Of a stretch of 59,888 nt of DNA, positions 18,299-47,274 are shown piece after piece. The stretch is from a virus. The DNA lies in IMG/VR virus record IMGVR_UViG_3300025132_004452, positions 1-59,888 of that record. One strand, 5' to 3'. Position 1 is the first letter of the stretch; every line of letters begins with the position of its first letter. The translations under genes were made by a program, and so were the position numbers. Under the pieces are notes generated by a model, which was given only the letters and a program-made list of their open reading frames with translations, had not been told where the DNA came from and did no database searches.

Positions 18299-18916
18299 GA
18301 TAGAAATATAAAATATTTAAATGATAAAAGAATTATATACCGTACAACACCAACGGATAAACCAACTAAAGTTTATAGCTGGGGATTATATTACAAAGAT
18401 GGTACTTACCAATGTTATGATTTATTTAGGTCTAAAGCTAAAATAAATACTTATAAATCTTTAAAATGGCATTTATTAGTATTGTGGTATTTAAACCCTG
18501 AGCTTAATCCAGATCAATTTAAAAAACTAACGTATGTTTTAACTACTAAAGAAAATGGTTTTACTACTTTCAGCATATCAGATAATGTTTTAGAAAAAAT
18601 ATTACACGATGTGTATATGTCTGATCTTGAAGAACCACCAACTAATAGATTAAGAAAAATAATTTTTAATACTATGTGTGGTTTAACAGCTAAAGAAAAG
18701 CTAAAAATAGTAGGAAAGTTATCTGGCAAAAACAAAAAAGTACAACAAGATGATCTATATCAGAGCATGTTAGACATAAACGATATGGGTGTTAAAATAA
18801 CCATAAGTAATCTAGCTGAACTATTTAAATGTTCAAGTAGAACAATACATAGAAATATGGGCGAAGAGCTAAAAAGAGAAAAAGAATTATTAAATAAAGA
18901 AATTGAAAAAGTATAA
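18290..18916 (+). CDS. Helix-turn-helix DNA-binding regulator (208 aa)
   Basis: The C-terminal part 'VKITISNLAELFKCSSRTIH' plus 'RNMGEEL' (about residues 164-190) is a typical HTH: helix, turn, recognition helix. Residues 1-130 have aromatic-rich beta/helix sequence ('VYSWGLYYKDGTYQCYDLFR') of unknown fold. It is followed by the sigma-like gene, which overlaps it by 14 bases, so the two are probably a regulatory pair. The start has a strong Shine-Dalgarno and overlaps dyad copy C, suggesting autoregulation. Confidence 0.7.
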   Translation: MSYDRNIKYLNDKRIIYRTTPTDKPTKVYSWGLYYKDGTYQCYDLFRSKAKINTYKSLKWHLLVLWYLNPELNPDQFKKLTYVLTTKENGFTTFSISDNVLEKILHDVYMSDLEEPPTNRLRKIIFNTMCGLTAKEKLKIVGKLSGKNKKVQQDDLYQSMLDINDMGVKITISNLAELFKCSSRTIHRNMGEELKREKELLNKEIEKV

Positions 18917-19661
18917 TATTAAAAATTATATAAGATATAAAGAAGATATAAAACTAGCTATTCAAAAAATACCAGTTAAAAACTTTGTTGATTATACTAA
19001 TAAAGAACTAAAAATAATATTCTTACCTTTAGTAGAAAACGTTGCAAGAAAATTTTCAACCGCTCAAGAAGCTTCAGGTGTTATGTCTATAATGGATTTA
19101 ATACAAGAAGGTAGTATACAACTTTGCAAAGCTGTTGATAAAATAGATAGAGAAAAGTTAGCCGATTCAGATGATGTAGCTAAAACTCTAAAATCATTTT
19201 TTGCAAAAAGAGTTAGAGGTGGAATACGTAGAGAAATAGATAGAAACAGAGCTCAAATGCGTATACCAGAGCATAAACTAAACGAGATAAGAAAAGACGG
19301 TGGTAAAGATAAAAAAATGGTTGCTATGTTTTTTAATTCAATGTTTTTAAGTATAGATAATAAACCTTACGAAGATGATGATATGATATATCAAATACCT
19401 GATAAATCAGATCCTTATAATGAAGACATGTTAAATGCTTACATAATGAGCTTATTAACTAAACATCTTGAATGGAAAGAAATGTTTACATTAGAAAAAA
19501 GCTATGGTTTAACAGGTCCTAAATGGTCTGCTAAAGAAATAGCTGATAAATTAGATATACACGGAGTATCATCTTATGTAAGAGTTTCAGAGTTAAAAAG
19601 ACAAGCAGTCGACAAACTTATAGAAAATGTAGATCACTCGCAAGTGGTTGACTTTCTGTAA
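18903..19661 (+). CDS. Sigma-70-family-like factor, TTG start
   Basis: A 252 aa protein. 'SIMDLIQEGSIQLCKAVDKI' (region 2.1-2.2, core RNAP binding), 'LKSFFAKRVRGGIRREIDRN' followed by 'RAQMRIPEHKLNEIRK' (region 2.3-3-like, -10 recognition and melting) and 'WSAKEIADKLDIHGVSSYVR' then 'VSELKRQAVDKLIE' (region 4-like HTH) support a sigma factor. The first codon is TTG at 18903; no ATG fits upstream of the conserved part. It could direct host RNAP to the late convoy. Which promoters it reads is unknown. Confidence 0.8.
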   Translation: MKKYNIKNYIRYKEDIKLAIQKIPVKNFVDYTNKELKIIFLPLVENVARKFSTAQEASGVMSIMDLIQEGSIQLCKAVDKIDREKLADSDDVAKTLKSFFAKRVRGGIRREIDRNRAQMRIPEHKLNEIRKDGGKDKKMVAMFFNSMFLSIDNKPYEDDDMIYQIPDKSDPYNEDMLNAYIMSLLTKHLEWKEMFTLEKSYGLTGPKWSAKEIADKLDIHGVSSYVRVSELKRQAVDKLIENVDHSQVVDFL

Positions 19662-29548: not shown

Positions 29549-29807
29549 CTCTATTTTGTTTAGTCATTTCTTTACACCATTCTCTAAGCTCTTGTATTTC
29601 ATCTTCAAGATCTTTTATATGGTTTGTTTGCCATTGTTGTTTTAAATCATATTCTATTCTATCTATAACAGCCTTAGGCATTTTTTTAGCTTCTTCTATA
29701 TCACTTTGTAGAGTGAAGTACATTCCCATGAATGACGATGTTACTACTATTATACTAACAATAGTTTTTAAATCTAATCTAAATTCGGTGCTTTCTCCTA
29801 TTTTCAT
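29529..29807 (-). CDS. Membrane-anchored coiled-coil protein (92 aa), spanin-like
   Basis: 'MKIGESTEFRLDLKTIVSII' and 'VVTSSFMGMYFTLQ' form one TM segment (about residues 14-34), followed by a periplasmic-type coiled-coil 'IKDLEDEIQELREWCKEMTK'. This plan resembles i-spanin/Rz-like or other envelope proteins. Its start overlaps the giant gene stop (ATGA). Confidence 0.55.
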   Translation of the reverse strand: MKIGESTEFRLDLKTIVSIIVVTSSFMGMYFTLQSDIEEAKKMPKAVIDRIEYDLKQQWQTNHIKDLEDEIQELREWCKEMTKQNRDGNKKR

Positions 29808-32800
29808 TTTTTCATTAGCTCTATAAGTTTTGCTACTCTATCTTTTTCGTATCTTAATGCACGAATCTGTTTCTTGCTTAAACCTAAACTATCTAAAATT
29901 TCAACTTGTCTAGGTTTTTTTAATTTTTTATACTTAGTAACTTCTTTTTGCTTGTTTTCTACATCTATGTCTTTTTGTGTTAATAGTTTTTTAGGCGAAT
30001 ATTGACCTTCATTATCTCTCTTAGCTTTCATTCTCTTTCTATAAGCTGACTTAGCTTCTTTTTGAGAATCTATATATTCTTTTCTTTCTTCAGTAGAATT
30101 AAGCTGATAATCTTTCCAACCTAATAAAAGAGATATTCTTTTCCAAGTTTGCTGTTCATCTTCTAAAGCACTTCTAACATTTTCTGATTTACTTATTAGT
30201 CTATCAACAGGAACGTTAGTCAGTCCTGATATAACATATGCAGCTGATTTATAAGCAGGATCATCTATACTCCATTTAGCTTCATCATGTTTATAACCTT
30301 CGTACTTCCAAGTTAAACCAGCTTGTCTAAGCTTACTTAGTTTTATATCTATAGGAGGAGAAAAGTTTAACATTTCATTTGCAGCGTCTTCGTAGTTAGG
30401 ACCTGGAAAAGTACCTTCTTTTTTAGACTCTTTGTATACTTTTCTACCAACTGATATTAATGTAGATAAAGCAACTCCATATATACCTGTACCATTTAAC
30501 ACCGTATTTAACATACCATTGGCTACATTTAAATATCTTTCGTTTTCACTTTCTTCTTCCTCTTCTTCATTAAAAGCTAATGCGAATAAACCTTGTTGTA
30601 AGGCTGAAAATATCATACTTTGTACAGCCATATAATAAGTAACTCTTGATATGTTACTCACATCACTTTGGAACTGTGTCATTCCTTTACGCTTTCTTCT
30701 GTTTATCAAATCTAAGAAAGATTTTTTACCTAACCTATTCATTTGCATAGGTGTATTTTGAAAAGCTAATATTAACCTACCTAAAGTACTCGCTTGTTGT
30801 TGTGACACTCTATCTGGACGAGATGATTGCTGTGACTCTTCTGCTATTTCTCTAAATTCTAAAAACGCTTGTTTTTTAGCATCAGCCTCACTCATACCTT
30901 CCTTCATTAAAGCATTTATTCTATTCCTATAAAATGTAGCACCACCTGATGCAATAGCAAAACTATCTGCAAATTGTGTTGGTAAGTAACCTTTAGAAAG
31001 TATATAAGCTATAGCTGCTTTAGCTTTATTTTTACTTGTAGCTGCAGCATCTGCTATTTCAGATTCACTCACGTTTAATTTTAACCCATTACGTCTTTCA
31101 ACCAAAAACTCAGAGTTCATTAACTCAGAAAAATCTTTCCAATATTGAGTTTGATTAGCAAAAGCTTTACCAGCATTATATATATTATTACTACCAAAGT
31201 CGATAAAGTTAACAGCTGATATAGTCTGAAGTAAAGCTGATCTCATGTTAAAAAACATAACTGTACCAACAGAATTATTAATATAATCTAACAATCTATT
31301 TTCTATTTTACCCATTTTGTTAGATCTGTTTCTACCAGACTTCATCCTAGAAATCATATCTTCCATAGCGTCTCTCCAGTTAGTACCAAAAGCAGCTTCC
31401 ATCTTGTTAAGATTTTTAGGTGAAAATATTAAATCAATATTATCTTGCCATTCTTGTAAGTACTTACTTCTTTTACCTGTTCTAAGACCGTCTAATAAAT
31501 CAGTTGATATAGTACCTGCTAACCAATTGGCTGTTGGCGCGGCGTAACCGTCACCTTTGTTTATGTCAATTAAGTTTTGAGCAAAAACATCTATAGCTTG
31601 GTTTTTCTTAGCAAAGGCTAACACTTGTTTTAAATCTGCTTTAGATATTCCTGGTATATCCATACCTTGTTTGTTCCACGCTAATATTCTAGCTACATCA
31701 GAGTGAGTGAATTCACCAAATGCTATTTTATTTAAGTTCTTAGGTATTAAACCCTCTTTAATTAGCTGCTCTTTTAAAACTTTAAAGTCATTGATCATTC
31801 TATTTTGATCACGAGATAAGTTTTCCATAGCTCTACCGTAAGGTTCAATTAAATGCTTATTGAAAAAGTCCATTTGCATGTTACCTATTTCACCTTTGCC
31901 TAACATAGAATATAATAAACCTACAAAATCCTCTGCAGAAGGTGGAATAAATAGTTTAAACTTACCTTTTTTTCTACCTACAAGTCTTGCTTTAACATCT
32001 GAATATTCTTTTTCAGATTTTATACCAGTTTTGTGTTCTATAATATCATTTACAGTTTGATCTACGGTTTTACTAAATTTAATTTTAGCTTGTTGCACTG
32101 CTGACTTAACATCTATAACACTTAAAGCATCTTTAACCGCTTGCACGTTTTGTATAGCATCATCTGCAAAATAAAAATCATTATAACCCTCAGCAGCTTT
32201 ATTAACTACCCAGTTAGCTTTAGCAGCACCTGTAGAGTTACCTAGACCAGTTATATTTTTTAAAGGTATATTAAGACCTAAACTATCTAAAAACTCTTTA
32301 ATTGCAGCTTGTGACTCAGGAGCTCTTGCTGTTAGCACAAAAACATCTTCTGTTCCTCTAGCTGCTTGTATTTTTTTAGCAACGTCTAATAATGGACCTG
32401 GCTTACCATCTCTAACTATATTGAAGTCACTAAAGTCAAACTCACCTCCTTCATTTAATATCTCTCCACCTCGTTCTGCAAATTCCTCAGCCGTTAATGT
32501 ACCTTTAGTTCCATCAGGCATAGTATAAAATACATTACTTTTTGTTCTTGCTAAAGTATCGTCAAAGTCGAACACTCTTATTTTTTTAACAGGAGCGTTA
32601 GGATCTCTAGCTATATCTAAAGCTTTATCCATCATATTAGCTTGCTCTATAGTCTGTTTATTAGTTTTAGTTTTAGAAAAAGGAGTAACACCACTATTTG
32701 ATTGAGATTTCTCATTAGCTTGAGTTGCTTCGTGTTGAGATTTTGCTAAAGCCAAGTGAGGTTTTAATATTTCATTTGCTATTTTAGAAGTAATTTGTCC

Positions 32801-35800
32801 ATCAAATATTTCAAATAATAATTGTTGTTGAATTTTTATAATACCAGGTGTTTGTAAATCTTTACTTACTTCTAAACCAAATTCTTTAGCTATTGAATTA
32901 CCATTAGACAATATAATAACATTAGGATTTATACCAGTGTGTTGATCACCATTTTCATCTATTCTAACTTGACTATTTACATTAGAGTTAAAATATCTTA
33001 TCCATACTGGTTTTAATCCTAACAATACGTCTGCTACATATTGAGAAGGAATATTTTTAATATAATCAAATTTAATTCCATCCGGTCCAACACCTTTTAA
33101 CATGCCGTCGTAAACTTTAGGTAAAGCTCCTTGAAAAAACGATTCTAAGGCTGGATCTATATATTGTTCTACATTATCTTGTGCCATTCTGTTTAATAAA
33201 AATTTCATTAAATCAGATGCAGGTTCTGTATGTTCTTCTACGTTTTTTAAATTAAGAGTATTTCCAAATTCTATAATTGAACCTGTTCTCCCAAAGTGAT
33301 TTTGAGAACCACTAGTAGAAGATAAAAGCCCTGCTACAACAGGTAAGAATTTAGCTTTATCAAACTGAACAGCGTCATTTAAAGACATGATTAATTCTTT
33401 AAAACCATCTCTTTTATTAATTTGCTCTTGCGTAAACTTAGGAGTACCTAACTCTCTTTGCATTTTAGCACTATAACCTTGTCTCTTAACAGCTTCTTTT
33501 ATATTTTTACTAGTTTCTACACCTTTGTCATCTATCTTAGTTTCTAAAGCAAAAGTATTTCCTCTTTTTTTAGCTTCTGCTATAGCGTTTTTTACTTGAA
33601 GAGCGTTAGCGAATAAAAACGTTCCTACAGGAGCGATTTTTAATTGAACTGATTTTTTAACAAAATCTTCATCTGAGTTTAATATTGTAGATCCATCAAT
33701 TAATTTATATTCTCTAAGGGTTTCTGTAGGTTTATTTAATAATCCATTTTTTTGTAAACGTTTTTTAACTTTAACACTTAGTGGAGTTCCAAGATTTACA
33801 TTATCTCCACCATTAGATAATGTTCCAGCCGTTAAAGCTGATTCAGGTAGGAAATTTATTAATGCACTGTTTTTATCAAAAAATATTTTATCTATAAGTT
33901 CTTTTTTACCCTCAGGAGTGTTTGCATCTATAGCGTCAAGATCATAGTTAGTTACTATTTCTTTAAAGTCCGCTTGCTCAGCTAGTAGTTGTGGACCAGG
34001 GTCGGCTTGAAACAAGTATGCTGTTTTAGCAATAGCTTTACTTTTAGCCTTTGGTAATTTAATTTTAATTTTACCACTATCTTCTACTATTCCCAATAAA
34101 GTGTTAGAATATAAGTTTAAGACTTCTTGTACGTTTTGATTTTTAGAAGATATATAACTTTTAATCAATTCACTTAAATCTTTTCCGTTTTCTATTTTAT
34201 TAATAATGTTTGAACCTTGTAAAAACTGTTCTAAGTTATTGATTTCATTTAAAACCTCGTACTGTTGTAGATTAGTTTTATTTGTTTTACTAAATTTAGA
34301 ACCAGGCACTCTATCAATATTCTTACCTACAACCGCTGTGTAATTCTCAGCTTGTCTTAATCCTTGTAACTCATAAATATCTTTAATTCTGTTTTGCACA
34401 GCTGGATCTTCTAAAACCTCCATAGTAGCGTCAAACGCTAACTCTTGAGCTATAGCACCTGCTAACGCATCTTTTCTAGTTCCTTTAGTCGATGCTCCTA
34501 CGTTTGAGCCTAGAAAATAATCCATAAACTCTGATCTCTTAACGTCTTTCTTTCTAAATAAAGGATTATTATCTGGTCTAGCTTGTTTACCTGTGGCTGG
34601 ATCAATTAATGGCTCTACAAACTGTCTAAATCGTTTGTTAGCGGTTGATTGTGATATAGCATTAAACACTGTTTGAAAGTTTTCACTTAAGAAAGTTTCA
34701 TAATTAGCTCTAGTACCTATAAACTTTTTTATCTCCTTAAACAATTCTTTGTCAAAAGCTTTTTTAAGATCTTCTCTAAACTTTTTATTGCTTACCTCAG
34801 GTAATTTAGTTCCAAGAACTTTACGCACAGAGTCTAAAACCTTATTATATATAGGTCCACCTTTCTCTATACCTAATTTAGTTCTCATGTTATCTATAGT
34901 ATCCTCTACTATATTAGCATCAATTCCAGCTTCGATATTAGTATCATCTGCAATAGTTTCTCCTATAGTTCTACCTTCTTCACCTAGCTTTTGATCTGTA
35001 GATACTTGTACGCCTGGTTTCTTAGCCTTTTCCCTCTTAGCTTTGTTAGTTACATCACCTACACGTCTGCCAATATAAGAGTTCATCCAAGCAAATAAAC
35101 TGTCATTTTTACTAGGGTCAAAACTCATTAAGTGATCAGCTAGCTTATCTCTAGTTTCTTGTATAATATTCTCTCTACTCTTGTCGTATATAGTTTGACC
35201 AGTAGCCATTTTATCTATAATGAGTCCATCAAACTTGCCTTGACTAATAGCTGTATACACTTTGCTAAATGCTCTATCTTTATCTTGAAGAAACTCGGCT
35301 TTAGTCATTTTATATTTGCCATCTGGACCTTTAGGACCTGGAGCTTCATTGGTTAAGTCTGTTAGCTCTGATCTTTCAGCTTTAGTTAAAGATAGTTTAC
35401 TTTTACTAACAGGTTTAGAATCTTTTTTAATTGTTTTCTTTTTACGAGATATTTCAGCAGTACCTTCAGCTATTGATTTAGTTAAACCACTTAGCTCACC
35501 TGTTTCAAAAGAATTATTATAACTAGTAATCATGTCAAATACATCTTTACCAGTTTTTATTTGTCCTGATCCATCATTAAATTTCTGAAACCTACCAAAC
35601 ATCTTATTGTACAAAGTTCTATCTGCTTCTAAATTATTCTGTCTCATAAAATCACTAAGCCTAGCTAAGCTTTCTTCAGCTACTAAAGTGGGGTTAGATA
35701 AATCACCTTTTGAGTCATACTCTCCATATAATTCTTTAGTTTCTAAAAAGTTTTGATATGCTTCTTTATAGTTTTTCTTAACATATGACTCAAGATCTTG

Positions 35801-38800
35801 AACTAAACCTACAGCATCAGGATTGTTTTCCATAAATTGCTTAAACAACGTATGGTGACCTATTTCATGAGATTGTACTGTAGAATTATTTCTGTTTAAA
35901 GCAAAAGTTATAGGTAGATTTATATTTTTAGTACCTTTACTACCGTCTTCGTTTGTAACTTCAATAGTTAGATTATCACCAAAAGCCATACCATTAACAG
36001 TTGCATCGCCTCTTGAAGCTTTGTCAGCTACTTCAAACTGCTGCTTCATTAATTCTTTTACTTGTAGCTTTTCTGAATCGTTTAAATCAGTTCTACTATC
36101 TACATATTCTAAACCTGCATCTAGAGCTTGTTTGTTGTTGTCACCAACAACCATTTCTACATTACCTAAAGTACCGTTTTTAGCTCTATAAGCATCAGCA
36201 AACTTTTTAGCTCTACCCTTATCAGCACTCCACTCTGCATTACTTAAAGTAAAATTCTTAACTGCTTCAACGGCCTTTAGTTCAATTAGCTGTTTGTTTA
36301 TAAGATCAGCTGCTGTTTTTTCGTCAAGATTTTTATCACTGTTTATTTTATCTATTTCAGATCTTATCTTGTGCTCAGCATTGAAACCATTTATTAGTCT
36401 TTGTCTATCTTCTTTAGTTAAAGACATTATTTCAGATCTAACTTTTTCTTGATCAGCTAATTGTTCTTTTGCTAGATCATGCATTTGTTTCTCTACTAAA
36501 GCCTTAGACTTAACTATAGCATCATGAGCTCCTGTTTTAGGCGTTAAACCAGCTAATTGCGTTTCATAACCTTTTATGGTATTACTTAATCTTAATATCT
36601 CTTTTCCTCTTTCTGCTATTTTAGCATTTCTATCAGGACCTCTAAAAGCTTGATATGTTTGTGCGACTAAACCAGGTGATTGCATAGTGCCAGACATTAC
36701 TAAACCAGAAACCATAGATTCAGTAAAACCATCTAGCATAGATACGTCTTTATTGCCTAGTATATATATCTCAGCAGCATTTTGAGATAGAGTAACAGCT
36801 CCTTCACCAAACGCTTCACCTGGAACACCTTTGACAAAATCTTTAGCACCTTCTTTTAAGTTTAACCATCGTTGATTAATCTTATTAGATATTGGCGAAC
36901 CTTTTTTAGCCACTTTGCTTAAGTCAAAAGCTTTTCTTAAATTTTTAGCACCTAGTTTAAAGTTGCCTAAAGTTATTTTTTCACTTGCATATTCAGCTAT
37001 ACCATAAATTCCAGCTGTACCATAAAATTGTAAAGCATTTATTTCTTCTGGTTGAATTTTATAAGTTTCATCATCACCTAAAGGATTAAAGCCAAACTCT
37101 TTTTTGAAATCTTGTATATATTTCATTTCGTTTAAGTTCCACTTTTCACCTTCCATACGCTTTTTCATATCGTACATTTGGTTACCACTTTCACTTAGTG
37201 CAGAAAGCACTAGACCACCACCGCCAGGAACTACTATTGATAAACCAGTGTTAAGTAATTGACCAGTTAGCATTTCAGTACCCCATCTCATACCGGCTTT
37301 AATACCATCTATTTCATCAAATCTTGCAGCAGGTCTATTTCTATTCAATAACTCTTCACCAAACTCAGAAGATTTTTTAAGCAAGTCATCAGCGGTTTCA
37401 TCTGCAAAGTTAGCAACATCCATAGCTAAGTTTACAGCATCACCTCCAGTTTCTCCAAACACATCATATGAAAAGTCGCTTATAGCTTTTACAGTGTCAT
37501 CATCTTTTAAGTCAAATCCAACGTGTTCTAAAACATTTAAAGGATTTGAAACTTCATTTAAAACAGCGCCTAGACCAGTAACTATTCTTACAGCGCTATT
37601 AGCAAGAATATTTTCATGGATTTCTAAAACGTTATATGTTTTTTGAGTTTTATCTATTATAGCTTGAGCATTATTTCCTTCAAACTGTATATTTCCTAAA
37701 AACTCCATATCAGCTTTTATATTTTTTTCAGCTAATATTACACTATTTTTTATGCTATTAAACTGATCAACGTCTTTTTGAGTTGCGTTAGGATCATTTT
37801 CTATTTTCTTTTTTAAATCATTTAATTTCGCGGCTTGAGCCAATATATTAACAGATTGCCCCTCGATGTTGTTGAGTATAACATTGGCTTCGTAATCACT
37901 GGTTTTGTTACTTAATTCTAATAGTCTTCCTAGATCTTTTTTATTTTTTTGATAATCTTCCCTAGAGTTTTCCATTCCTAAAACCTCATCAGCAGTAGTG
38001 TTAAAAAGTTTTTCAGCAATCTTCTTTTGTATAATAAACTGAGGAGCACTAGAGACAAGATTAACCACGTTGTTCCAAGCACCAACTCCTTGTTTATCTT
38101 CAAAAGTTTCTAAGGCTTCATCTATTGTATCTCTAACTTTTTTTGAATCAAGTTTTTCTTCAGATATTAAAGAAGTAGCAGACATTCTACTTGTTAAATC
38201 TAATAATTCAGGGCTTATATTTATATCTTTTACTAACTCAGGGTTTTTTGTTACCTCTTGTATAGAAGGTAAATATATTAACTCATTGTCAGTTCCTAAA
38301 CTAGCAACTGCATCATCTTTGTTTGTTGTTGTTTTTTTACCAGTCTTTTTTATATCAATAACCATATCCTGGTATTGATCTAAAAAGTTTTTTGTTAATT
38401 CATTTGATTTTCTACTAGCTTGCTTAGCCCAAGTAGTTGAATCAGAGCCTTTTCTACTTTCATTATTGCTCAAAGGTTTTAATTTCCAAGTAGCTGCATT
38501 ATTTGGATCGTATTTTTCACCATACCATTTCTTAGCTAGTTTATTATATGATATATCTTTCCATCTTTTTTTATTACTATCTATAGGTAAAGATCTATTA
38601 ATAAGATCTTGATTCTCCTCTTTGTTAGCCAATGCATATATTAAAGAAGACCCAACGTATTTACCACCAGACTGTTGTAATAAATTAGCATTTTTTAAAG
38701 ATTCTTTTTTCTGTGTTATTTTTTCATTAATTTCTTCATCAGTTGCTTGGGTTTCTATTTCAATGTTTTTTAACAATTTAGCAGCTGTTAATCTATCATT

Positions 38801-39268
38801 TCCTCCACTTCCTGACATTAAACCAACGAATTCTTTTCTTTCGGCTTGTACTTCTGCTATTTTTTTAGCTAATTTATCTCCTACAAGTGGTTCACCATTT
38901 TCATCTTTAGCTATTGTTTGGTTTGGTTTTTGTAATAGCTCTAAATACTGATCGTATTCTTTAGTATCAAAAGCATCGTCTTCAACATCAAATTGACTTT
39001 TAACTTCAATATTTTCTTCTTCACCGTCTTTTTTACTGCTTTTTTCAAAATTTAATATACGAGTTTCAAAAGTTTTAAATTTATCTTCATCACTCTCGCC
39101 TTCCATTCTTTGTATAAAAGTATCGTCAATAGAATCTAATGTGTTATATACATTACTTAAAAAACTATCATCATTTTTTATTCTTGATTTAAAATCAGTT
39201 ATAGTAAAGTTTGAATCATCAAAAGTTAATGTTTCAAATATTTCTGAAGCGTAGTCTTTTTCTTCCAT
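29804..39268 (-). CDS. 3154-aa polyvalent/internal virion protein with metallopeptidase, sigma-like and HAD segments
   Basis: One ORF of 9.5 kb. Segments seen: H1134-E-I-G-H1138-H zinc-peptidase motif ('STVQSHEIGHHTLF') with a possible third ligand in 'VAEESLARL'; a sigma-70 region-2-like stretch from about F1383 ('FDPSKNDSLFAWMNSYIGRR', later 'STDQKLGEEGRTIGETIADD'); a HAD phosphatase core with D2234-F-D2236-D-T2238, 'VLTARAPES' and 'FADDAIQN'; a C-terminal helical segment (about 2670-2990) of polyvalent-protein type. Several Gly-rich or hydrophobic stretches near 640-900 suggest membrane contact. It follows the portal-to-muzzle genes and may be injected with DNA. Confidence 0.7.
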   Translation of the reverse strand: MEEKDYASEIFETLTFDDSNFTITDFKSRIKNDDSFLSNVYNTLDSIDDTFIQRMEGESDEDKFKTFETRILNFEKSSKKDGEEENIEVKSQFDVEDDAFDTKEYDQYLELLQKPNQTIAKDENGEPLVGDKLAKKIAEVQAERKEFVGLMSGSGGNDRLTAAKLLKNIEIETQATDEEINEKITQKKESLKNANLLQQSGGKYVGSSLIYALANKEENQDLINRSLPIDSNKKRWKDISYNKLAKKWYGEKYDPNNAATWKLKPLSNNESRKGSDSTTWAKQASRKSNELTKNFLDQYQDMVIDIKKTGKKTTTNKDDAVASLGTDNELIYLPSIQEVTKNPELVKDINISPELLDLTSRMSATSLISEEKLDSKKVRDTIDEALETFEDKQGVGAWNNVVNLVSSAPQFIIQKKIAEKLFNTTADEVLGMENSREDYQKNKKDLGRLLELSNKTSDYEANVILNNIEGQSVNILAQAAKLNDLKKKIENDPNATQKDVDQFNSIKNSVILAEKNIKADMEFLGNIQFEGNNAQAIIDKTQKTYNVLEIHENILANSAVRIVTGLGAVLNEVSNPLNVLEHVGFDLKDDDTVKAISDFSYDVFGETGGDAVNLAMDVANFADETADDLLKKSSEFGEELLNRNRPAARFDEIDGIKAGMRWGTEMLTGQLLNTGLSIVVPGGGGLVLSALSESGNQMYDMKKRMEGEKWNLNEMKYIQDFKKEFGFNPLGDDETYKIQPEEINALQFYGTAGIYGIAEYASEKITLGNFKLGAKNLRKAFDLSKVAKKGSPISNKINQRWLNLKEGAKDFVKGVPGEAFGEGAVTLSQNAAEIYILGNKDVSMLDGFTESMVSGLVMSGTMQSPGLVAQTYQAFRGPDRNAKIAERGKEILRLSNTIKGYETQLAGLTPKTGAHDAIVKSKALVEKQMHDLAKEQLADQEKVRSEIMSLTKEDRQRLINGFNAEHKIRSEIDKINSDKNLDEKTAADLINKQLIELKAVEAVKNFTLSNAEWSADKGRAKKFADAYRAKNGTLGNVEMVVGDNNKQALDAGLEYVDSRTDLNDSEKLQVKELMKQQFEVADKASRGDATVNGMAFGDNLTIEVTNEDGSKGTKNINLPITFALNRNNSTVQSHEIGHHTLFKQFMENNPDAVGLVQDLESYVKKNYKEAYQNFLETKELYGEYDSKGDLSNPTLVAEESLARLSDFMRQNNLEADRTLYNKMFGRFQKFNDGSGQIKTGKDVFDMITSYNNSFETGELSGLTKSIAEGTAEISRKKKTIKKDSKPVSKSKLSLTKAERSELTDLTNEAPGPKGPDGKYKMTKAEFLQDKDRAFSKVYTAISQGKFDGLIIDKMATGQTIYDKSRENIIQETRDKLADHLMSFDPSKNDSLFAWMNSYIGRRVGDVTNKAKREKAKKPGVQVSTDQKLGEEGRTIGETIADDTNIEAGIDANIVEDTIDNMRTKLGIEKGGPIYNKVLDSVRKVLGTKLPEVSNKKFREDLKKAFDKELFKEIKKFIGTRANYETFLSENFQTVFNAISQSTANKRFRQFVEPLIDPATGKQARPDNNPLFRKKDVKRSEFMDYFLGSNVGASTKGTRKDALAGAIAQELAFDATMEVLEDPAVQNRIKDIYELQGLRQAENYTAVVGKNIDRVPGSKFSKTNKTNLQQYEVLNEINNLEQFLQGSNIINKIENGKDLSELIKSYISSKNQNVQEVLNLYSNTLLGIVEDSGKIKIKLPKAKSKAIAKTAYLFQADPGPQLLAEQADFKEIVTNYDLDAIDANTPEGKKELIDKIFFDKNSALINFLPESALTAGTLSNGGDNVNLGTPLSVKVKKRLQKNGLLNKPTETLREYKLIDGSTILNSDEDFVKKSVQLKIAPVGTFLFANALQVKNAIAEAKKRGNTFALETKIDDKGVETSKNIKEAVKRQGYSAKMQRELGTPKFTQEQINKRDGFKELIMSLNDAVQFDKAKFLPVVAGLLSSTSGSQNHFGRTGSIIEFGNTLNLKNVEEHTEPASDLMKFLLNRMAQDNVEQYIDPALESFFQGALPKVYDGMLKGVGPDGIKFDYIKNIPSQYVADVLLGLKPVWIRYFNSNVNSQVRIDENGDQHTGINPNVIILSNGNSIAKEFGLEVSKDLQTPGIIKIQQQLLFEIFDGQITSKIANEILKPHLALAKSQHEATQANEKSQSNSGVTPFSKTKTNKQTIEQANMMDKALDIARDPNAPVKKIRVFDFDDTLARTKSNVFYTMPDGTKGTLTAEEFAERGGEILNEGGEFDFSDFNIVRDGKPGPLLDVAKKIQAARGTEDVFVLTARAPESQAAIKEFLDSLGLNIPLKNITGLGNSTGAAKANWVVNKAAEGYNDFYFADDAIQNVQAVKDALSVIDVKSAVQQAKIKFSKTVDQTVNDIIEHKTGIKSEKEYSDVKARLVGRKKGKFKLFIPPSAEDFVGLLYSMLGKGEIGNMQMDFFNKHLIEPYGRAMENLSRDQNRMINDFKVLKEQLIKEGLIPKNLNKIAFGEFTHSDVARILAWNKQGMDIPGISKADLKQVLAFAKKNQAIDVFAQNLIDINKGDGYAAPTANWLAGTISTDLLDGLRTGKRSKYLQEWQDNIDLIFSPKNLNKMEAAFGTNWRDAMEDMISRMKSGRNRSNKMGKIENRLLDYINNSVGTVMFFNMRSALLQTISAVNFIDFGSNNIYNAGKAFANQTQYWKDFSELMNSEFLVERRNGLKLNVSESEIADAAATSKNKAKAAIAYILSKGYLPTQFADSFAIASGGATFYRNRINALMKEGMSEADAKKQAFLEFREIAEESQQSSRPDRVSQQQASTLGRLILAFQNTPMQMNRLGKKSFLDLINRRKRKGMTQFQSDVSNISRVTYYMAVQSMIFSALQQGLFALAFNEEEEEESENERYLNVANGMLNTVLNGTGIYGVALSTLISVGRKVYKESKKEGTFPGPNYEDAANEMLNFSPPIDIKLSKLRQAGLTWKYEGYKHDEAKWSIDDPAYKSAAYVISGLTNVPVDRLISKSENVRSALEDEQQTWKRISLLLGWKDYQLNSTEERKEYIDSQKEAKSAYRKRMKAKRDNEGQYSPKKLLTQKDIDVENKQKEVTKYKKLKKPRQVEILDSLGLSKKQIRALRYEKDRVAKLIELMKK

Positions 39269-39272
39269 ATTT

Positions 39273-40406
39273 TTACTTTGATAGCTTTGTTGGTTGAATT
39301 TCAGTTACAGCACCTTCTTCAACATTAGTAAATACTAAATCACTAGCTGGTTGTATAGCGTAAGAACCTGTTGTGGCTACATTATTAGCGATTACTTCAA
39401 ATAAATCATTAACTTCACCACCAGAATCCACCCATTCTTCGTAAGTATTAATTTCTGTATTTGGAAACATTCCTCCTAAATTATTGTAAAAAAGCTGTTC
39501 AACTGATAATTCAGGAGCACCTTTTATAGATGGTGCTACAACGTTTTTACCAGCATCATAACTCTTTTTAAGCTTTTCAACAATGTCTGTTTTATATTTA
39601 TCAATATTTCTAAACTTTCCTTTTTTACCAGGTTCTTTGCTTTTTACTTTACCACCATCTTTACTGCCAGTAGAAACTACAGTTGAAGTACCTGTTTGTT
39701 GAGTTTCTGCATATTTTTTTGGATCTAACAATGATTTAGCCCACTCATCTGTAACTAAGTTGTAATCTCTATCTATCATAGGGTATCTAGTACCACTAGC
39801 TTCGAAATCATCATAGTATTTTCCTAACTGTATTTCTTTATCAGCAAACTCTCCACCTTTAGCTCCAAATATACTGTATCTCCCATCTTCACCTCTACCT
39901 AACTTAATAGGTGCGCCTTGTTGTACAGCTAGTTCATATAAAAAATCTCCACCACCTGGAAGTTGCTCTTCTCCAGCAGCTATAGCTGCAGCCGCGGCAT
40001 CAACGTCTTTATCAAAAGAGCCTACAAACATTGTTAAATCATTTAAATCTCTATTATTGTTAGCAACAGTCTTTTGATACATTGTAAGATCTTCTGTAGT
40101 AGCTTCTGGACCAAAAGCTTTCATGTGTAGATCAGCTTCTAGTCTAGCAGCATTTTCTAACTCAGCTATAACTTGTTCATCTAAGCTTTTGTTACCAGTC
40201 TTTTCATATTCAGCTGCTTGTTTATACCTACCAGATACAGCGGCTTGAGCCTTTTGCTGCATTTCCTTCTGGGCTTTCTGCTCTTCTTTTCTTCTAGTAG
40301 CTCCTTGAGCTATGCTTCTTTTAAATGCTTGACCTGTTTGGCCTATGAAAGCAGCTGATCTAGCATCTCTAGTATCTCTTATTACTTTTTGATCTTTATA
40401 TCCCAT
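39273..40406 (-). CDS. Probable internal virion protein (377 aa)
   Basis: Ala/Gln/Lys-rich helical N-terminus ('RRKEEQKAQKEMQQKAQAAV') followed by beta-rich sections ('GRGEDGRYSIFGAKGGEFAD', 'YKTDIVEKLKKSYDAGKNVV'). Position between the giant protein and the 225 aa Ala-rich protein fits the cargo/internal-protein block of crAss-like virions. No catalytic motif. Assignment is by gene order. Confidence 0.55.
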   Translation of the reverse strand: MGYKDQKVIRDTRDARSAAFIGQTGQAFKRSIAQGATRRKEEQKAQKEMQQKAQAAVSGRYKQAAEYEKTGNKSLDEQVIAELENAARLEADLHMKAFGPEATTEDLTMYQKTVANNNRDLNDLTMFVGSFDKDVDAAAAAIAAGEEQLPGGGDFLYELAVQQGAPIKLGRGEDGRYSIFGAKGGEFADKEIQLGKYYDDFEASGTRYPMIDRDYNLVTDEWAKSLLDPKKYAETQQTGTSTVVSTGSKDGGKVKSKEPGKKGKFRNIDKYKTDIVEKLKKSYDAGKNVVAPSIKGAPELSVEQLFYNNLGGMFPNTEINTYEEWVDSGGEVNDLFEVIANNVATTGSYAIQPASDLVFTNVEEGAVTEIQPTKLSK

Positions 40407-40418
40407 AGCTATTATATT

Positions 40419-41096
40419 TTATTCAAACTCACCTGTGAGATTATTATAAACTTTTCCTTGATTCTTTTTCTTACCGAATTGTTCTTCAACGCTTTGCTCA
40501 CTACCGCTAAACAATGCTTGAATTTGTGAAGGGTCTTTAGCAATTTCTCCTAATACTCCACCAACTGCACCAGCTGTTTGTTGATCAATAGCTTGCTTAC
40601 CAGCTAAAGCATCCATTTCTCTTTGTTGATAACCTTCCTGCAGATTAGCAACTCTATCTAACTTATCCATTTCTCTTTGCTCTCTAACGGTAAATGCTTG
40701 TTGTTCACCCATAGCTCTATATTTTTCATTAGTAGCTTCTTGTTGCTTTATATCAGCTGATATACCTTGTTTAGAAGCAGCAGCTTGTCTAGCCAAAGCA
40801 GTGGCACCTGCAGCACCAAAACCACCAGCTCTCATTGTGTCTAATGTGTTTGCTAAAGCTTGATCTGTTTGCTGTGCTTGCATTTCAGCTGCTTCAGTAG
40901 ATACCGATAGATTAGCATAAGGATTAGTTATATCTTGTCTATTAGCTTCTAAGCTAGCTAACTGTTTACCCAAGGCATTAGCTTCTTTAGCAGCTTCCGT
41001 TGCTCTATCGTTGGCATCTTTTTTAGCAAAGGCACCCATTACTATTGGAGTAGCAGCCGCAGCCACTTGCATTATTCCACCTATTTTATCTGACAT
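40419..41096 (-). CDS. Ala/Gln-rich helical internal virion-type protein (225 aa)
   Basis: 'VAAAATPIVMGAFAKKDAND', 'GAAGATALARQAAASKQGIS' and 'AIDQQTAGAVGGVLGEIAKD' are Ala-rich helices, as in T7 gp14-like internal or ejection proteins. The N-terminus has a short hydrophobic stretch. It sits in the tail/internal-protein block. The next gene upstream is 11 bases away. Confidence 0.6.
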   Translation of the reverse strand: MSDKIGGIMQVAAAATPIVMGAFAKKDANDRATEAAKEANALGKQLASLEANRQDITNPYANLSVSTEAAEMQAQQTDQALANTLDTMRAGGFGAAGATALARQAAASKQGISADIKQQEATNEKYRAMGEQQAFTVREQREMDKLDRVANLQEGYQQREMDALAGKQAIDQQTAGAVGGVLGEIAKDPSQIQALFSGSEQSVEEQFGKKKNQGKVYNNLTGEFE

Positions 41097-41107: not shown

Positions 41108-42883
41108 TTAATAAGATGATGGTACAAATTCAGTACCTACTGAGAATAGCTCTTTCATTTCACCTGGAGCAGTTGTTGTATCTAACCTAAGCTTAACTGT
41201 TGTGTAATAACCTTTGACACCACTAGTTTGATTACCTAGTATTACTTCACCTATTTTTGCAGGCGAATTATTAACTACATTAGCTACGTATCTATTTTCT
41301 TTTCTACAAAAGCCAGCTCTTTTAGTTATACCATTTTCAATATACTCACCTTCGTAATAACTCTTAATCAAAGCTATATTATCTGTTTCGTTCTGCCAAG
41401 AACCTAAGTTACTTAATACTAATCCAGTTTGATCAGATTCTACTTTTTCAACTTCCCAACCGCTAGAACCTTCATACTCAATTGTTTTAAAAGTTTTAAC
41501 TAAACTTGGCTGTTGGTTGAATATAAACTCTATAGACGATGTTACTGGATCGTTAGCATAAAAAGTATTTCTTGAAACATTTTCTGAATTATGAATCCAA
41601 AGATTACCATTTGATGTAGTATAAAATCTATTAAATAAGCTTTCAGCAAGTAAAGGCTTATAATCATAAAACGTAACCCATCCAGCAGCTTGCTCATCAT
41701 AAACTAAAGTTTGATAATCACCATTAGCTTGTTGCATACTGATTAAATAATTATCATTGTATACGTCATAAGCTCCTATAACATAATCTTTTTTAAATGT
41801 TCTAAAAATAACATCACTATTAGAACCAAAGTCTTGAGGAGGAAAGTCTGTTAGTTGAACTCTAGCATTCACTTTATCAACAGCTTTAACGTAACAACCT
41901 GTTTCTGCACCGTTTATTAATACTCTAGAACCTATTTCTACATTAGTAAAGAATTCACCACCTTCGCCGGCTAAATTTTTATATATATAAGGTTCACCAG
42001 CACTTAACCCTGCTGTATAAGGGAAAGGAGGTTGAACACCATCTATAGTATCATTAACATCAAAAGCTCTTAAATTTGAATCTATTTCACTTAATTCATC
42101 TCTAAAAAAGTCTTTCATTCCATTAGCAGCAATCTCAATTAAACCATTTTCAGCTAGTCTTAATACTGTATTCCTGTTTTTATCAGAAAAATACATTCTA
42201 TTTCCAAAATGATCAAATGATTCAGGATTGTCACTAATACCATATTCACCTACATATGGAGTTATTTCCCCAATTACAAGCTTTGTTGTTGAAACTGGAG
42301 TACCTTGACCATCAGCCGCATATATAGCATCTTTATCTATTAATGCTCTACTTACTTTATTTTGTTGAAATATATGTAGTTTAGTATCTGAAGCATATAT
42401 TCTTTGTATAGAACCATATTCAGGTGGTGCAGTAAAAGTTATGTTAGTAGCTTCGGAAAAAACATTTGTTTCATTAACATTAGTAGCAGAATTAAAAAGA
42501 CCAGAATAAATTACTTTATTATCTCTAACAGTGCTAACATAGTCTTTGTTTACTAAATAAGCTTTAACACCGTAATCAGTGGAAACATTATTGTAACCTC
42601 CTTTTACTCTTGATTCTTCTATGAGCCAGTTAGCTGCGTTTGTACTAGGTAATCCAATTATATCAGGATTTACACTACCCAGTACTGGAGAATTCCAAAA
42701 GTTTTGATACCTATTACTAGGAACACTTCCAACACCGTTATCATTACCAAATCTATAAAAAGGAAGACCAGGGAAGTTCGGTGCGTTTAAATAGTTACTG
42801 GCACCGTTAGGCGTCCAATTAGCTCCAACAGTTTTTTTAGCCCAAAACGTATTAAAATATTTTACTTCTAATGTAAATGCCAT
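41108..42883 (-). CDS. Tail/muzzle-type structural protein (591 aa)
   Basis: Beta-rich throughout. 'GEYGISDNPESFDHFGNRMY' and 'FSDKNRNTVLRLAENGLIEI', then 'GMKDFFRDEL', match a signature of structural proteins in crAss-like phages (G-I-x-x-N-P-E-S...D-x-x-R-x-x-V-L-R-L-x-x-N-G-I). It likely forms part of the tail muzzle or stabilising ring. Its start overlaps the 1463 aa gene end by 1 base, so the two are coupled. Confidence 0.7.
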   Translation of the reverse strand: MAFTLEVKYFNTFWAKKTVGANWTPNGASNYLNAPNFPGLPFYRFGNDNGVGSVPSNRYQNFWNSPVLGSVNPDIIGLPSTNAANWLIEESRVKGGYNNVSTDYGVKAYLVNKDYVSTVRDNKVIYSGLFNSATNVNETNVFSEATNITFTAPPEYGSIQRIYASDTKLHIFQQNKVSRALIDKDAIYAADGQGTPVSTTKLVIGEITPYVGEYGISDNPESFDHFGNRMYFSDKNRNTVLRLAENGLIEIAANGMKDFFRDELSEIDSNLRAFDVNDTIDGVQPPFPYTAGLSAGEPYIYKNLAGEGGEFFTNVEIGSRVLINGAETGCYVKAVDKVNARVQLTDFPPQDFGSNSDVIFRTFKKDYVIGAYDVYNDNYLISMQQANGDYQTLVYDEQAAGWVTFYDYKPLLAESLFNRFYTTSNGNLWIHNSENVSRNTFYANDPVTSSIEFIFNQQPSLVKTFKTIEYEGSSGWEVEKVESDQTGLVLSNLGSWQNETDNIALIKSYYEGEYIENGITKRAGFCRKENRYVANVVNNSPAKIGEVILGNQTSGVKGYYTTVKLRLDTTTAPGEMKELFSVGTEFVPSSY

Positions 42884-45800
42884 TATCTTACTAATTTTAC
42901 GTAAATAACTTTTCTAACGTCACTGCTTAGACCAGTTCCATTATTAAATTTCTCTCTTAACCTTATAGTAACTCTGTAAACACAAATGTCTTCACCTTTT
43001 AAAGCTCCTTCAGCTCTAAACTTACCACTTCTATCTTCTTCAAATTGGCAAAATGGAGGGTGATCTACATCTGCTAAAAAAACCCATCTACCAATGTTGT
43101 GTGCGTAATATTCATTAACAAGGTTCGTGTTACTAGCACCTAGTCTTATTAAGTCAGTAGGACCAAACCTTCTAACATCGAAAGGAAATTTTCTATAACC
43201 CCAAGCTTTATCGTTATTAACATTTGGATCATTGCCACCAAATTGTATTCCAGTTGTACTATTGCTGTCATTTATTATTAAAAAGTCTTTCCAACCGTAA
43301 CCACTTTTAGGTACAGCACCTTGTTCCCCATAAGTGGGAGAAGAATCTGTTCCAATAGAAAAATTGTCATAACCGTCTTTATCAAATATAGCAAGTTCAC
43401 ATTTTTCTATGTAAGGTTCTGAAGCATCGTTTTGCTCACCAAAAGAACCATCAAAAAAGTCATCTAAATAACAACTAGAAGAAGTCCCGTCAATTCCACT
43501 TCCATTGTTTTTCATTGCTAATCCAGCCGCATTAAACCTAACTGCTGAATTACCAATTTTACTAAAATCAATAGCACTAGTACTTCCAATGCCTTGATTA
43601 GCCCATCTAAATATACTGCTATCTCTACTAGTTGCGTTTGAGTTTTCAAACATTTTTCCGATGTTTTGATTATTGTTACTACCATCTCCTCCAAAAACTT
43701 CTTTTTTCTTACCAATACTCATTGTCCAATAGAAATTTCTTTTAACAGACCAATTTCTTGCATTATCATCGCTATCACTAGCACCTATTGAAGCTGTGTC
43801 TTTAATTATATCTTTAGGTAGCGGTATAAATGGAGAGTTACCGACTCTATTTGCATCTACAATAATTTGATTAAATATTCTATCAGCATTATAACTATTA
43901 ACTACGTCACTAGGATCTGTAGGATTAGGATATATTGTTGCCTGACCCCAGGTTTTTAACGGTATAGAATCTTCTGCAACCGTACCGCTTTGAACAATAG
44001 GTATACCTGTGTCTAAATATTTCCATACAGGCTTATTGTTTGTTAGTTTATTATTACTTACATAAACTATTTTTGAACTTGGCACTTCTCCTGGTATTGT
44101 TAGTTTCAACGCAAAGGTTAAGTTTTCTTGTAGTTGATGTTCAAAATTAGGATTAAAATATTTTCTTTCAGCAGCACTTTTATCTGCCATTTTAATATTC
44201 CAACTAGGTGGAGAACTTCCTATTTTTACTATCTCAAAGCTACCACCAACGGGGTCGTCTGGTCCACTAGTTACATTTTCTAATTCTATATTTGCGTTGG
44301 GATCGTTTGACTCTAGCCCTCCATTTGTTAATATTTTTATATCTCTGTTTAACAAATATTTACCATCACCATAATAATCACCTATACCATCATATGGATA
44401 TCTTTCTTCCATTAAAAATAAAAATCCAGAAATACCTGCAGGACCATTTGGAGTTTGTCCTTGTTTTATAGATGTATTTAAATCTGATATTAAACCACTA
44501 CTTGTAGTTTCCCAGTATATATCTAATTTAGATTCAACAGGGTTTGTTTCAGCTACTATTAAAAACTTAGAAAATTGAGGTTGTGTAGTATCAGATGAAG
44601 GAGCTTGATAAGTTGACTCAAAACCTAATCTTAATGTTTCAGCATTAGAAATATCGATAGATGCTATAAAAGGATTTTTATCAGCATTGTAAAAAGGATC
44701 TACATACTTAGTATTTGACGAATCTATATAATAAGGATAACTTTTAAAAGATATTAATGAAGTCGCGGTGCTAGCACTTGGGTTAATAAAACTACCTTTT
44801 TTAGTGGTCCAAGGACCAAAGTCTCTAAAAGCTTGAATATTTACGACTTTAAATGGTTTAATTCTATCTTCGTCAAGTTGTCTATTATACCAAACGTTTT
44901 TAGCATCTGCAGTAACAATTCCTGGAGTTGGATGAAAAACTCTAAAAAACAAAGTAGTGTCACTTCCAAAAGACCTGTCAGTGGGTGATATATTAGTAGT
45001 GTTTTTTGGAATTTTATTTATATTATCTCCATATATCGAAAGATTACTAATTTCATATATTCTACCATATGAAAGAGGTAGGATAGGGGCTTGAAATGTT
45101 ATACTACCACTTGTAGATCCAGGTAAATAAACATTATAATACTCTTGTTCTGATTGTTTAACAACTATTTTATAAGAATACCAGCCAAGAGGATTAGTAT
45201 CTTTATTATATAATCCTGGATAAAAATTTAAACCAGGTACTTGATTAGGTATTTCTTCAGTAAAAATAACTTTAATAGAACCTCCAAAAAAATCTGGATA
45301 AGACTTGTCTCCAGCGTTATCGTAAGGAACGTACACAGTTGACTTTTCAGATTTAACATTATTGTTAGAAGAGAATAACACTTCACTTTCATTATTAGCT
45401 AGTATAACATTAGACTGTCTACCAAATCTATCTGCTAAAATAACACCAACTTGATATGTCCTACCTTGTTTTATTGTAGAGTTATAATGTTCTTTTATAG
45501 TGTTTTCAGATGAAGTAAGCATTGGAGGGTTTTCGCCAAGCGCAACAGCGTCATCTAAGCTTTGTGACAATAAAACATTTCCTTCTGCATCAAAACCATT
45601 TGGATTATTTATATTTCTTTCACTAGAAAAAGCTTCGTATTCTAAGCTAGAAGGTGCGGCATGGGAATTTTGATAATTCGCATACATAACTCTATTACCA
45701 GCTACTTCTTGAGCCTTGGCTTTAACCGGTGTTATGTCACTTACTCTTAATACAGCTGATTCAGGTAAAACTTGAAAAGGTTTTGCAGACCTGTATTTGT

Positions 45801-47274
45801 ATATTAATTGTCTATCATAAGGAAAGCCAGTATAATTATTAGTAACAAATTGACTAGATAAATTAGCAAAAGTATTAATAGGTATTTCACCTATAGAATA
45901 AACATTGTTATCATTAGATGATTTTATTAATACTTGAATCTCCTTAACTTTGTATCTATTTATAAAGTTTAATCCAGTAGAAGTGTCAGATATATTATAA
46001 TAAGAGTTGTCAGGAAGAATTATATTTAACTCTGCAGACGTTATTAAATTAGTAAACCAATCTAAGGTAGTACTTATACTTGCTTTTCCTTCGTCACCCA
46101 CTTTAAAACTACCATATTGTTTAGGTACAAAAAGTGGTTGAGTAAAAGGAGCCATTAACGAATACTCATTGTCATCATACTTAAATCTATAGCTAAATCT
46201 AGCAAATCTTTCTTCTAAGTATTTTCTAGGTCTTAAGTTTTCTTGATACTCTGGATTTAAAAGTTGAAAAGTTATTAAATTACCTTCAGCCCAACCTTGT
46301 TTTACATCTGAAGCACTTGGAACTGTCTGGCCGCTTTTTGGTTGATCTTCTGATAAATATAATCTATTTTCTGGTAAACCACTCACAGATCTAACGTACA
46401 TGGTTCCTCCATTAGGAACGCTATAATTTTTTACCTTAATAACAGGGAAGTCAAAATTAGATCCTTTTTGCATTAAATCTCTTAACGCGGTACCTGGCCA
46501 AGAAGGTTGGTTAGACACAACCGCTGTTGCAAAACTTATATAATCTCTACTAGATGGAATATCATTTATAGGTGCTGTTAAAAAAGGTGGTAACCACTCT
46601 TCATCTTCAGCCTTCCAGGTAGGACTCCAATATGGCGTTGTTGGACCACCTGTGTTTTTAATAAACTTTATAGGTTCATAAGGTGCAAATTTAGCTACAG
46701 ATATTTGATCTTCAGCAAAGTAATAATCAGTGATATGTTTTGGCTGTGCGATTAAATCGTTATTTGTAAACGCTTTATCTATGTTTATTTTTCTAGGTTG
46801 GTTTCTATTGTCATTAAAAAACAATAAATTTTCTATAATATTAAACCCAAGTACTCTATGTGTTTTTGAAAAGTTTAGAAACTCTCCTTTCAATAAAACA
46901 ATTGGTGTGTAGTTTTCACCAGACAATTTTACTTGTATAACATAGTTATAACCTTGAAACTTATTGCTTAATTGGTCAGGTGAATTGTCAGTAAAAGTTG
47001 TTAAAAACAAATATAATGAGCTAGTATCGTCATGTGAAAACAAACCTATAATCTCTAAAACATTATTAGTGCCTAAAGTGTTTTGTAAACTTATTAAAAA
47101 GCTACCTATAACAGTATCATTACCTAAAACATTTTCTAACGCACCAACATTAGCTCCTTCTGATTTGCTTACGTTTATGTTTCTACCTTCTCTATACTCT
47201 CCTTTTGGTACTAATCTAGCATCTTTATCTCTATTCATCTTAGATGAAAGGAAATTGTTTTGTATTTTAGCCAT
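42883..47274 (-). CDS. Large crAss-like stabilisation/muzzle protein (1463 aa)
   Basis: The N-terminus 'SKMNRDKDARLVPKGEYREG' plus 'RNINVSKSEGANVGALENVL' and 'GN' is the distinctive start of the large tail/stabilisation protein of crAss-like phages (M-N-R-D-x-D-x-R-L...G-E-Y-R-x-A/G-x-N-I). Most of the rest is beta-sandwich and propeller-like repeats. It probably forms the outer tail knob. A 1-base spacing to the ring protein upstream supports one structural operon. Confidence 0.75.
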   Translation of the reverse strand: MAKIQNNFLSSKMNRDKDARLVPKGEYREGRNINVSKSEGANVGALENVLGNDTVIGSFLISLQNTLGTNNVLEIIGLFSHDDTSSLYLFLTTFTDNSPDQLSNKFQGYNYVIQVKLSGENYTPIVLLKGEFLNFSKTHRVLGFNIIENLLFFNDNRNQPRKINIDKAFTNNDLIAQPKHITDYYFAEDQISVAKFAPYEPIKFIKNTGGPTTPYWSPTWKAEDEEWLPPFLTAPINDIPSSRDYISFATAVVSNQPSWPGTALRDLMQKGSNFDFPVIKVKNYSVPNGGTMYVRSVSGLPENRLYLSEDQPKSGQTVPSASDVKQGWAEGNLITFQLLNPEYQENLRPRKYLEERFARFSYRFKYDDNEYSLMAPFTQPLFVPKQYGSFKVGDEGKASISTTLDWFTNLITSAELNIILPDNSYYNISDTSTGLNFINRYKVKEIQVLIKSSNDNNVYSIGEIPINTFANLSSQFVTNNYTGFPYDRQLIYKYRSAKPFQVLPESAVLRVSDITPVKAKAQEVAGNRVMYANYQNSHAAPSSLEYEAFSSERNINNPNGFDAEGNVLLSQSLDDAVALGENPPMLTSSENTIKEHYNSTIKQGRTYQVGVILADRFGRQSNVILANNESEVLFSSNNNVKSEKSTVYVPYDNAGDKSYPDFFGGSIKVIFTEEIPNQVPGLNFYPGLYNKDTNPLGWYSYKIVVKQSEQEYYNVYLPGSTSGSITFQAPILPLSYGRIYEISNLSIYGDNINKIPKNTTNISPTDRSFGSDTTLFFRVFHPTPGIVTADAKNVWYNRQLDEDRIKPFKVVNIQAFRDFGPWTTKKGSFINPSASTATSLISFKSYPYYIDSSNTKYVDPFYNADKNPFIASIDISNAETLRLGFESTYQAPSSDTTQPQFSKFLIVAETNPVESKLDIYWETTSSGLISDLNTSIKQGQTPNGPAGISGFLFLMEERYPYDGIGDYYGDGKYLLNRDIKILTNGGLESNDPNANIELENVTSGPDDPVGGSFEIVKIGSSPPSWNIKMADKSAAERKYFNPNFEHQLQENLTFALKLTIPGEVPSSKIVYVSNNKLTNNKPVWKYLDTGIPIVQSGTVAEDSIPLKTWGQATIYPNPTDPSDVVNSYNADRIFNQIIVDANRVGNSPFIPLPKDIIKDTASIGASDSDDNARNWSVKRNFYWTMSIGKKKEVFGGDGSNNNQNIGKMFENSNATSRDSSIFRWANQGIGSTSAIDFSKIGNSAVRFNAAGLAMKNNGSGIDGTSSSCYLDDFFDGSFGEQNDASEPYIEKCELAIFDKDGYDNFSIGTDSSPTYGEQGAVPKSGYGWKDFLIINDSNSTTGIQFGGNDPNVNNDKAWGYRKFPFDVRRFGPTDLIRLGASNTNLVNEYYAHNIGRWVFLADVDHPPFCQFEEDRSGKFRAEGALKGEDICVYRVTIRLREKFNNGTGLSSDVRKVIYVKLVR

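Follow-up and report, generated by a model that had tools for sequence, protein, structure and literature searches.

Phages without a polymerase of their own must recruit the host RNA polymerase before their genes can be read, and the virion solutions known for this step are either to pack a polymerase, as N4, crAss and phiKZ do, or to pack a modifying enzyme, as T4 does with Alt. The locus described here raises the question of whether a virion might instead bring along a part of a transcription initiation factor, carried within a very large protein. The window, i.e. the whole stretch of DNA that was analysed, is a 59,888-base IMG/VR virus record, which may be a fragment because one of its ORFs extends past the left edge. 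It contains an ORF of 3154 amino acids, with an ATG start and zero internal stops, for which the first-pass annotation had described HExxH and DxDxT motifs on either side of an FDPSK stretch. The ORF listing and the motif positions (HEIGH at residue 1134, FDPSK at 1383, STDQKLGEEG at 1423 and DFDDT at 2234) confirm this description.

29804-39268 (-): giant-protein gene, last of the virion operon (ORF call, positional counterparts in relatives, operon order)

The phage, its virion operon and the family of giant proteins

The source of the window is a marine bacterial virus, a flavophage-like podovirus related to Cellulophaga phage phi38:1 and to the Flavobacterium elemo phages. PHROG matches assign TerL, portal, MCP and further virion genes to head-and-packaging families, and a 1463-aa gene upstream of the giant gene matches virion proteins of phi38:1 and of the elemo phages. 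The record also carries, at 6675-8216 (-), a phage-encoded GroEL chaperonin (phrog_5725, 4e-134). The part of the virion operon that precedes the giant gene is composed as follows:

42883-47274 (-): muzzle-like virion gene, N-terminal part (phrog_14478, 3.3e-36; phi38:1 and elemo structural proteins)
41108-42883 (-): muzzle-like virion gene, C-terminal part (crAss_MUZ_C, 3.5e-10; phrog_14478)
39273-41096 (-): two small virion-operon genes in the interval between muzzle and giant (39273-40406 and 40419-41096; ORF listing)

The muzzle-type virion protein (41108-47274) is divided over two adjoining ORFs, one matching the N-terminal and the other the C-terminal part of phrog_14478. The two small genes hold the relative place of the crAss cargo proteins C1 and C2, position alone being compared. 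A muzzle-type gene is located upstream, about two genes before the giant, in the distant relatives L016, L038, L040, L043, L046, L050 and L053, and a muzzle gene plus about two genes precede the giant in every relative whose upstream genes were typed. In crAss001 the cargo and RNA polymerase genes directly follow the muzzle gene. The slot of the giant gene is the one where crAss phages keep their cargo and virion RNA polymerase, a set that in crAss001 consists of the virion proteins gp45-gp50 (PMC10172136).

The virion operons of phi38:1 and elemo likewise end in a giant gene whose product is annotated as structural (1691 aa in phi38:1, 3694 aa in elemo), the structural label of phi38:1 gp101 being derived from similarity to another Cellulophaga phage. 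Based on this synteny, and because the positional counterparts in relatives are annotated as structural (they are homologous to it over residues 597-1009 only), the giant protein is probably a component of the particle that enters the cell together with the DNA. The RNA polymerase beta-prime domain (PF04997) was not found in ten related records in a search whose positive control worked, the source record itself possibly being incomplete; the single-subunit RNA polymerase profile (PF00940) gave no match, but its controls were equally silent, which makes that result uninformative.

Scans of IMG/VR identified three close relatives first and further ones later, and PSI-BLAST linked 26 giant phage proteins across the sigma-like region. 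The order HExxH, FDP segment, STKGTRK, HAD DxDxT and C-terminal block is repeated in most of these 26 giants, whose regions outside the recognizable domains include:

36629-37480 (-): module of residues 597-880, common to phi38:1 gp101 and elemo gp18, with a Gly-rich hydrophobic stretch
34289-34861 (-): STKGTRK module, residues 1470-1660, conserved in nearly all giant relatives
32759-34201 (-): fast-changing central segment, residues 1690-2170 (alignment of relatives)
29807-31951 (-): conserved C-terminal region, residues 2440-3154 (78-85% identity with close relatives, 41-55% with distant ones)

Residues 597-1009, approximately, match the giants of phi38:1 and elemo with BLASTP E-values of 1e-5 and 5e-6 (single comparisons), and residues 597-880 are a candidate membrane or ejection part; no strong transmembrane helix was predicted in the giant protein. 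For the STKGTRK module no known relative was found, its sole match, to a ribosomal protein, being judged implausible. The segment of residues 1690-2170 diverges quickly even among close relatives. For the sigma-like and C-terminal parts, a tblastn search against cultivated phages returned no homologue.

A sigma region-2-like domain

The stretch around FDPSK had been read as sigma-70 regions 2-3. The complete giant protein gave nothing with E < 1 against Pfam, and the Pfam scans were run on pieces of the protein since the full-length scan was silent. The features on which the comparison with sigma factors is based are:

35021-35359 (-): sigma-70 region-2-like domain, residues 1304-1416 (Sigma70_r2, PDB profile searches, AlphaFold2 model)
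35060-35170 (-): residues 1367-1403, ungapped against E. coli RpoD 403-439, with W1394 at Y430 and Y1398 at W434
34943-35002 (-): sigma region-3.2 finger-like motif STDQKLGEEGRTIGETIADD, residues 1423-1442 (motif only; low pLDDT)

Residues 1290-1520 scanned alone matched one Pfam family, Sigma70_r2 (PF04542), with an E-value of 0.14 and a score below the Pfam gathering score; the same family is the top one among the 26 relatives, the best member reaching 0.0021. A six-frame search of the window with PF04542 returned two matches, one to the giant ORF with E 0.0021 and one to a stand-alone gene located at 18903-19661, and across 29 related records it returned only stand-alone sigma-like genes of about 255 aa and two giant ORFs (L015, the best at 1.9e-5 per genome, and L018 at 4.5e-4). 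Family profiles searched against 177,635 PDB sequences ranked sigma factors first, weakly (E 0.015), one of these profiles placing two sigma factors at the top. The reversed-profile control, built from 16 of the profile's 22 sequences, had zero PDB matches, and a PDB profile search with the C-terminal region of the giant included no sigma factor among its matches. Individually these sigma E-values are weak, chance matches with E 0.006-0.01 having arisen with other profiles of the giant protein. Similarly, an hhalign comparison with four sigma factors of E. coli reached a P of about 0.02, not significant alone, and its internal control left a narrow gap between the sigma window (21.0) and other windows (18.5); a separate profile of seven relatives, picked by eye as the most sigma-like, matched PDB sequences no more strongly.

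An AlphaFold2 model of residues 1291-1668, computed with no templates, has a pLDDT of 79 and a pTM of 0.54. Aligned with VIA-align, its 33 best rows consist entirely of sigma factors, with Z falling from 7.2 to 4.9, the next row being unrelated (Z 4.2), and the sigma matches cover model residues of about 14-126. Foldseek's own E-values for this model against the PDB all exceed 0.5, and the structural claim is based on the second-look aligner together with the sequence, not on these values. A Z of this size can reflect a common helical arrangement, since helical folds reach middling values easily; the matches count as evidence because all best rows belong to one family, which the first-pass annotation had predicted beforehand. 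The proposal that residues 1304-1416 resemble sigma-70 region 2, by which bacterial sigma factors hold on to RNA polymerase and open promoters, in sequence register and in predicted fold, survives for the most part.

At the level of single residues, the position of RpoD F419 is F or Y and that of Y430 is aromatic (Y, W, F or H) in 26/26 relatives; the W433 position is variable across the 26, and so are the clamp-facing positions, the equivalent of Q406 being D, S, E or Q. The FDP segment lies within a domain common to all 26 giants, as expected of a motif above chance. Taken together, the sigma relationship is partly supported: region 2 stands on Pfam, PDB profiles, the six-frame search and the AlphaFold2 model, and region 3 is a motif likeness, found post hoc. 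In 76,566 residues the STDQKLGEEGRTIGETIADD-type pattern occurs only downstream of the region-2 segment, the pattern having been chosen after seeing the sequences. A complete sigma factor is not established because the region 4 helix-turn-helix was not found: with E-values as high as 10 allowed, Sigma70_r4 matched neither pieces of the giant nor 171-aa segments of the 26 relatives.

The stand-alone sigma-like gene of this phage, located at 18903-19661 (+), encodes 252 aa and matches phrog_351 (RNA polymerase sigma factor, 5.7e-15) and Sigma70_r2 (3.6e-5); genes of this type, of about 255 aa, were also found in five related records.

Putative peptidase and HAD domains

The sigma-like domain is flanked by two further domains, for which the first-pass annotation had proposed metallopeptidase and HAD assignments.

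35492-36229 (-): zincin-like metallopeptidase domain, residues 1014-1259 (HExxH and Glu conservation, AlphaFold2 model)
35855-35869 (-): HEIGH motif, residues 1134-1138 (motif scan, conservation in relatives)
35672-35674 (-): E1199, candidate third zinc ligand (invariant column E186 of alignment A11)
32069-32587 (-): HAD domain, residues 2228-2400 (DFDDT 2234, T2313, DD 2369-2370; phrog_415)

H1134, E1135, H1138 and E1199 are the sole invariant columns of the peptidase region in 24 relatives, a conservation that places the motif above chance and bears out the metallopeptidase-type signature. The zincin hallmark of an HExxH motif and, in a subsequent helix, a candidate third zinc ligand is found in these 24 sequences, and the AlphaFold2 model displays a compatible topology (a helix, three strands, the HExxH helix and the Glu helix). 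Fold comparison returned weak matches of the model to zincin-fold domains (best Z 5.0), and Foldseek alone returned zero. The HExxH motif and the conserved glutamate point to a putative zincin peptidase. Elsewhere in the window, a 124-aa protein encoded at 3302-3676 (-) contains HEMVH and has no family match in Pfam and PHROG scans.

The HAD assignment is upheld by a match of residues 2200-2400 to the polynucleotide kinase family phrog_415 (E 7.4e-6), and Pfam detects HAD in the relative L015 (E 0.0025). By position, the motifs of PNKP-like HAD phosphatases are present as D2234/D2236/T2238, T2313 and D2369-D2370, and the domain is similar to the half of polynucleotide kinase that acts as a phosphatase. 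In the relative L004 (16793-17995) a P-loop kinase is nested between DxDxT and the remainder of the HAD domain (AAA_33, 3.4e-13; phrog_505, 5.6e-8), and in L011 and L012 a P-loop is found at the same nested position, an unusual PNKP-like arrangement; the P-loop of these three relatives reads GGPGSGKT or GGPGSGKS.

Several unrelated domains in one phage or plasmid polypeptide define the polyvalent proteins, and the zincin-like, sigma-2-like and HAD domains of the giant, in a single chain, agree with the polyvalent-like plan that the annotation had suggested.

Possible roles at host entry and comparison with known systems

The reading we tentatively favour, with confidence somewhat short of even, is that the giant is an ejection protein of the polyvalent kind, which delivers its sigma-2-like module to the host RNA polymerase. 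The protein would be made late, incorporated into virions and pushed out into the host cell before or alongside the DNA, the N-terminal part common to the phi38:1 and elemo structural proteins serving in packaging or envelope passage. The zincin peptidase domain would probably cleave the chain and free its parts, after which the sigma region-2-like domain could dock on the core RNA polymerase of the host, with the clamp helices of beta-prime as the probable site, and help it to start at phage early promoters. The HAD phosphatase, with the P-loop kinase in some relatives, may heal nucleic-acid ends.

From the sequence, the module could either activate or block the host polymerase. It is unlikely, in our estimate, that the domain is an inhibitor, which would bind the clamp helices, block the host sigma and shut down host transcription, the phage sigma encoded at 18903-19661 serving the phage promoters later; the missing region 4 in the Pfam scans and the additional sigma gene that this phage and several relatives possess would suit such a role, but the aromatic melting position (Y430), kept in all 26, goes beyond the needs of clamp binding alone. 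A sigma-2-like fold that serves the capsid or the ejection channel, as a structural element or by binding DNA, and never acts on the host RNA polymerase is improbable: the location of the domain in a very large virion-operon protein and the variable clamp-facing positions are consistent with it, but the aromatic positions of F419 and Y430 are retained, and sigma-2 folds are known for binding RNA polymerase and promoters. Least probable of all is a helical segment that resembles sigma region 2 by chance, as single E-values of 0.01-0.2 and the narrow hhalign margin might suggest, given that Pfam, the PDB profile, the six-frame search and the structure agree in one register and that the reversed-profile control is empty.

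If delivery of the sigma-like module is the correct reading, carrying a sigma-2 module in the virion would add a third solution to early transcription, the virus bringing a transcription starter along in place of its own polymerase. With slightly more reserve we propose the extension that a widespread group of marine phages, relatives of the crAss-like phages and of the Pervagoviridae, packages such a module within a giant ejected protein, in the slot that houses a virion RNA polymerase in crAss phages, and so reprograms or blocks the host enzyme upon entry. No report of a virion-packaged sigma factor was found in the open-access literature, which is weak evidence of absence.

Among the closest known systems, phi38:1 gp101 and elemo gp18 (Pervagoviridae, Elemovirus) are likewise the final genes of their virion operons and share with the giant a module of residues 597-880 (gp101) or 597-1009 (gp18); unlike the giant, neither has a detected sigma-2 or HAD domain, and gp101 is half its length and without HExxH. 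Elemo gp18 (L006) contains an HExxH at residue 1543 (VAHEIFHAILL), whose flanks are not alignable to this giant. Relative to Sigma70_r2 (PF04542), the domain has a matching register and predicted fold, but region 4 is undetected and the domain is buried in a virion-operon protein. The polynucleotide kinase/phosphatases of phrog_415 and phrog_505 have the HAD DxDxT in common with the giant, which possesses the phosphatase half only, whereas the kinase is found in L004, L011 and L012. Polyvalent proteins of phages and conjugative elements (Iyer et al. 2017, PMC5512222) combine, as the giant does, many disparate domains per chain with a zincin hub and a phage late operon; their survey mentions no sigma, haloacid or phosphatase (PMC5512222).

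The place of the giant after the muzzle gene is equivalent to that of crAss001 gp45-gp50, where crAss phages have an ejection and RNA polymerase-related set and this phage has one giant, with an RNA polymerase undetected. The N4 virion RNA polymerase gp50 (Schitoviridae), a protein of about 3,500 residues that is ejected, comprises an N-terminal part and a transcription module, as well as a domain with HExxH and a C-terminus that is large and helical (PMC12633501). It is similar to the giant in size and in HExxH, but contains a whole RNA polymerase where the giant has a sigma-2-like domain and no polymerase was found. N4 gp50 shares this module plan with the giant. The simplest reading is a delivery plan like that of N4, in which a sigma-like module would replace the polymerase.
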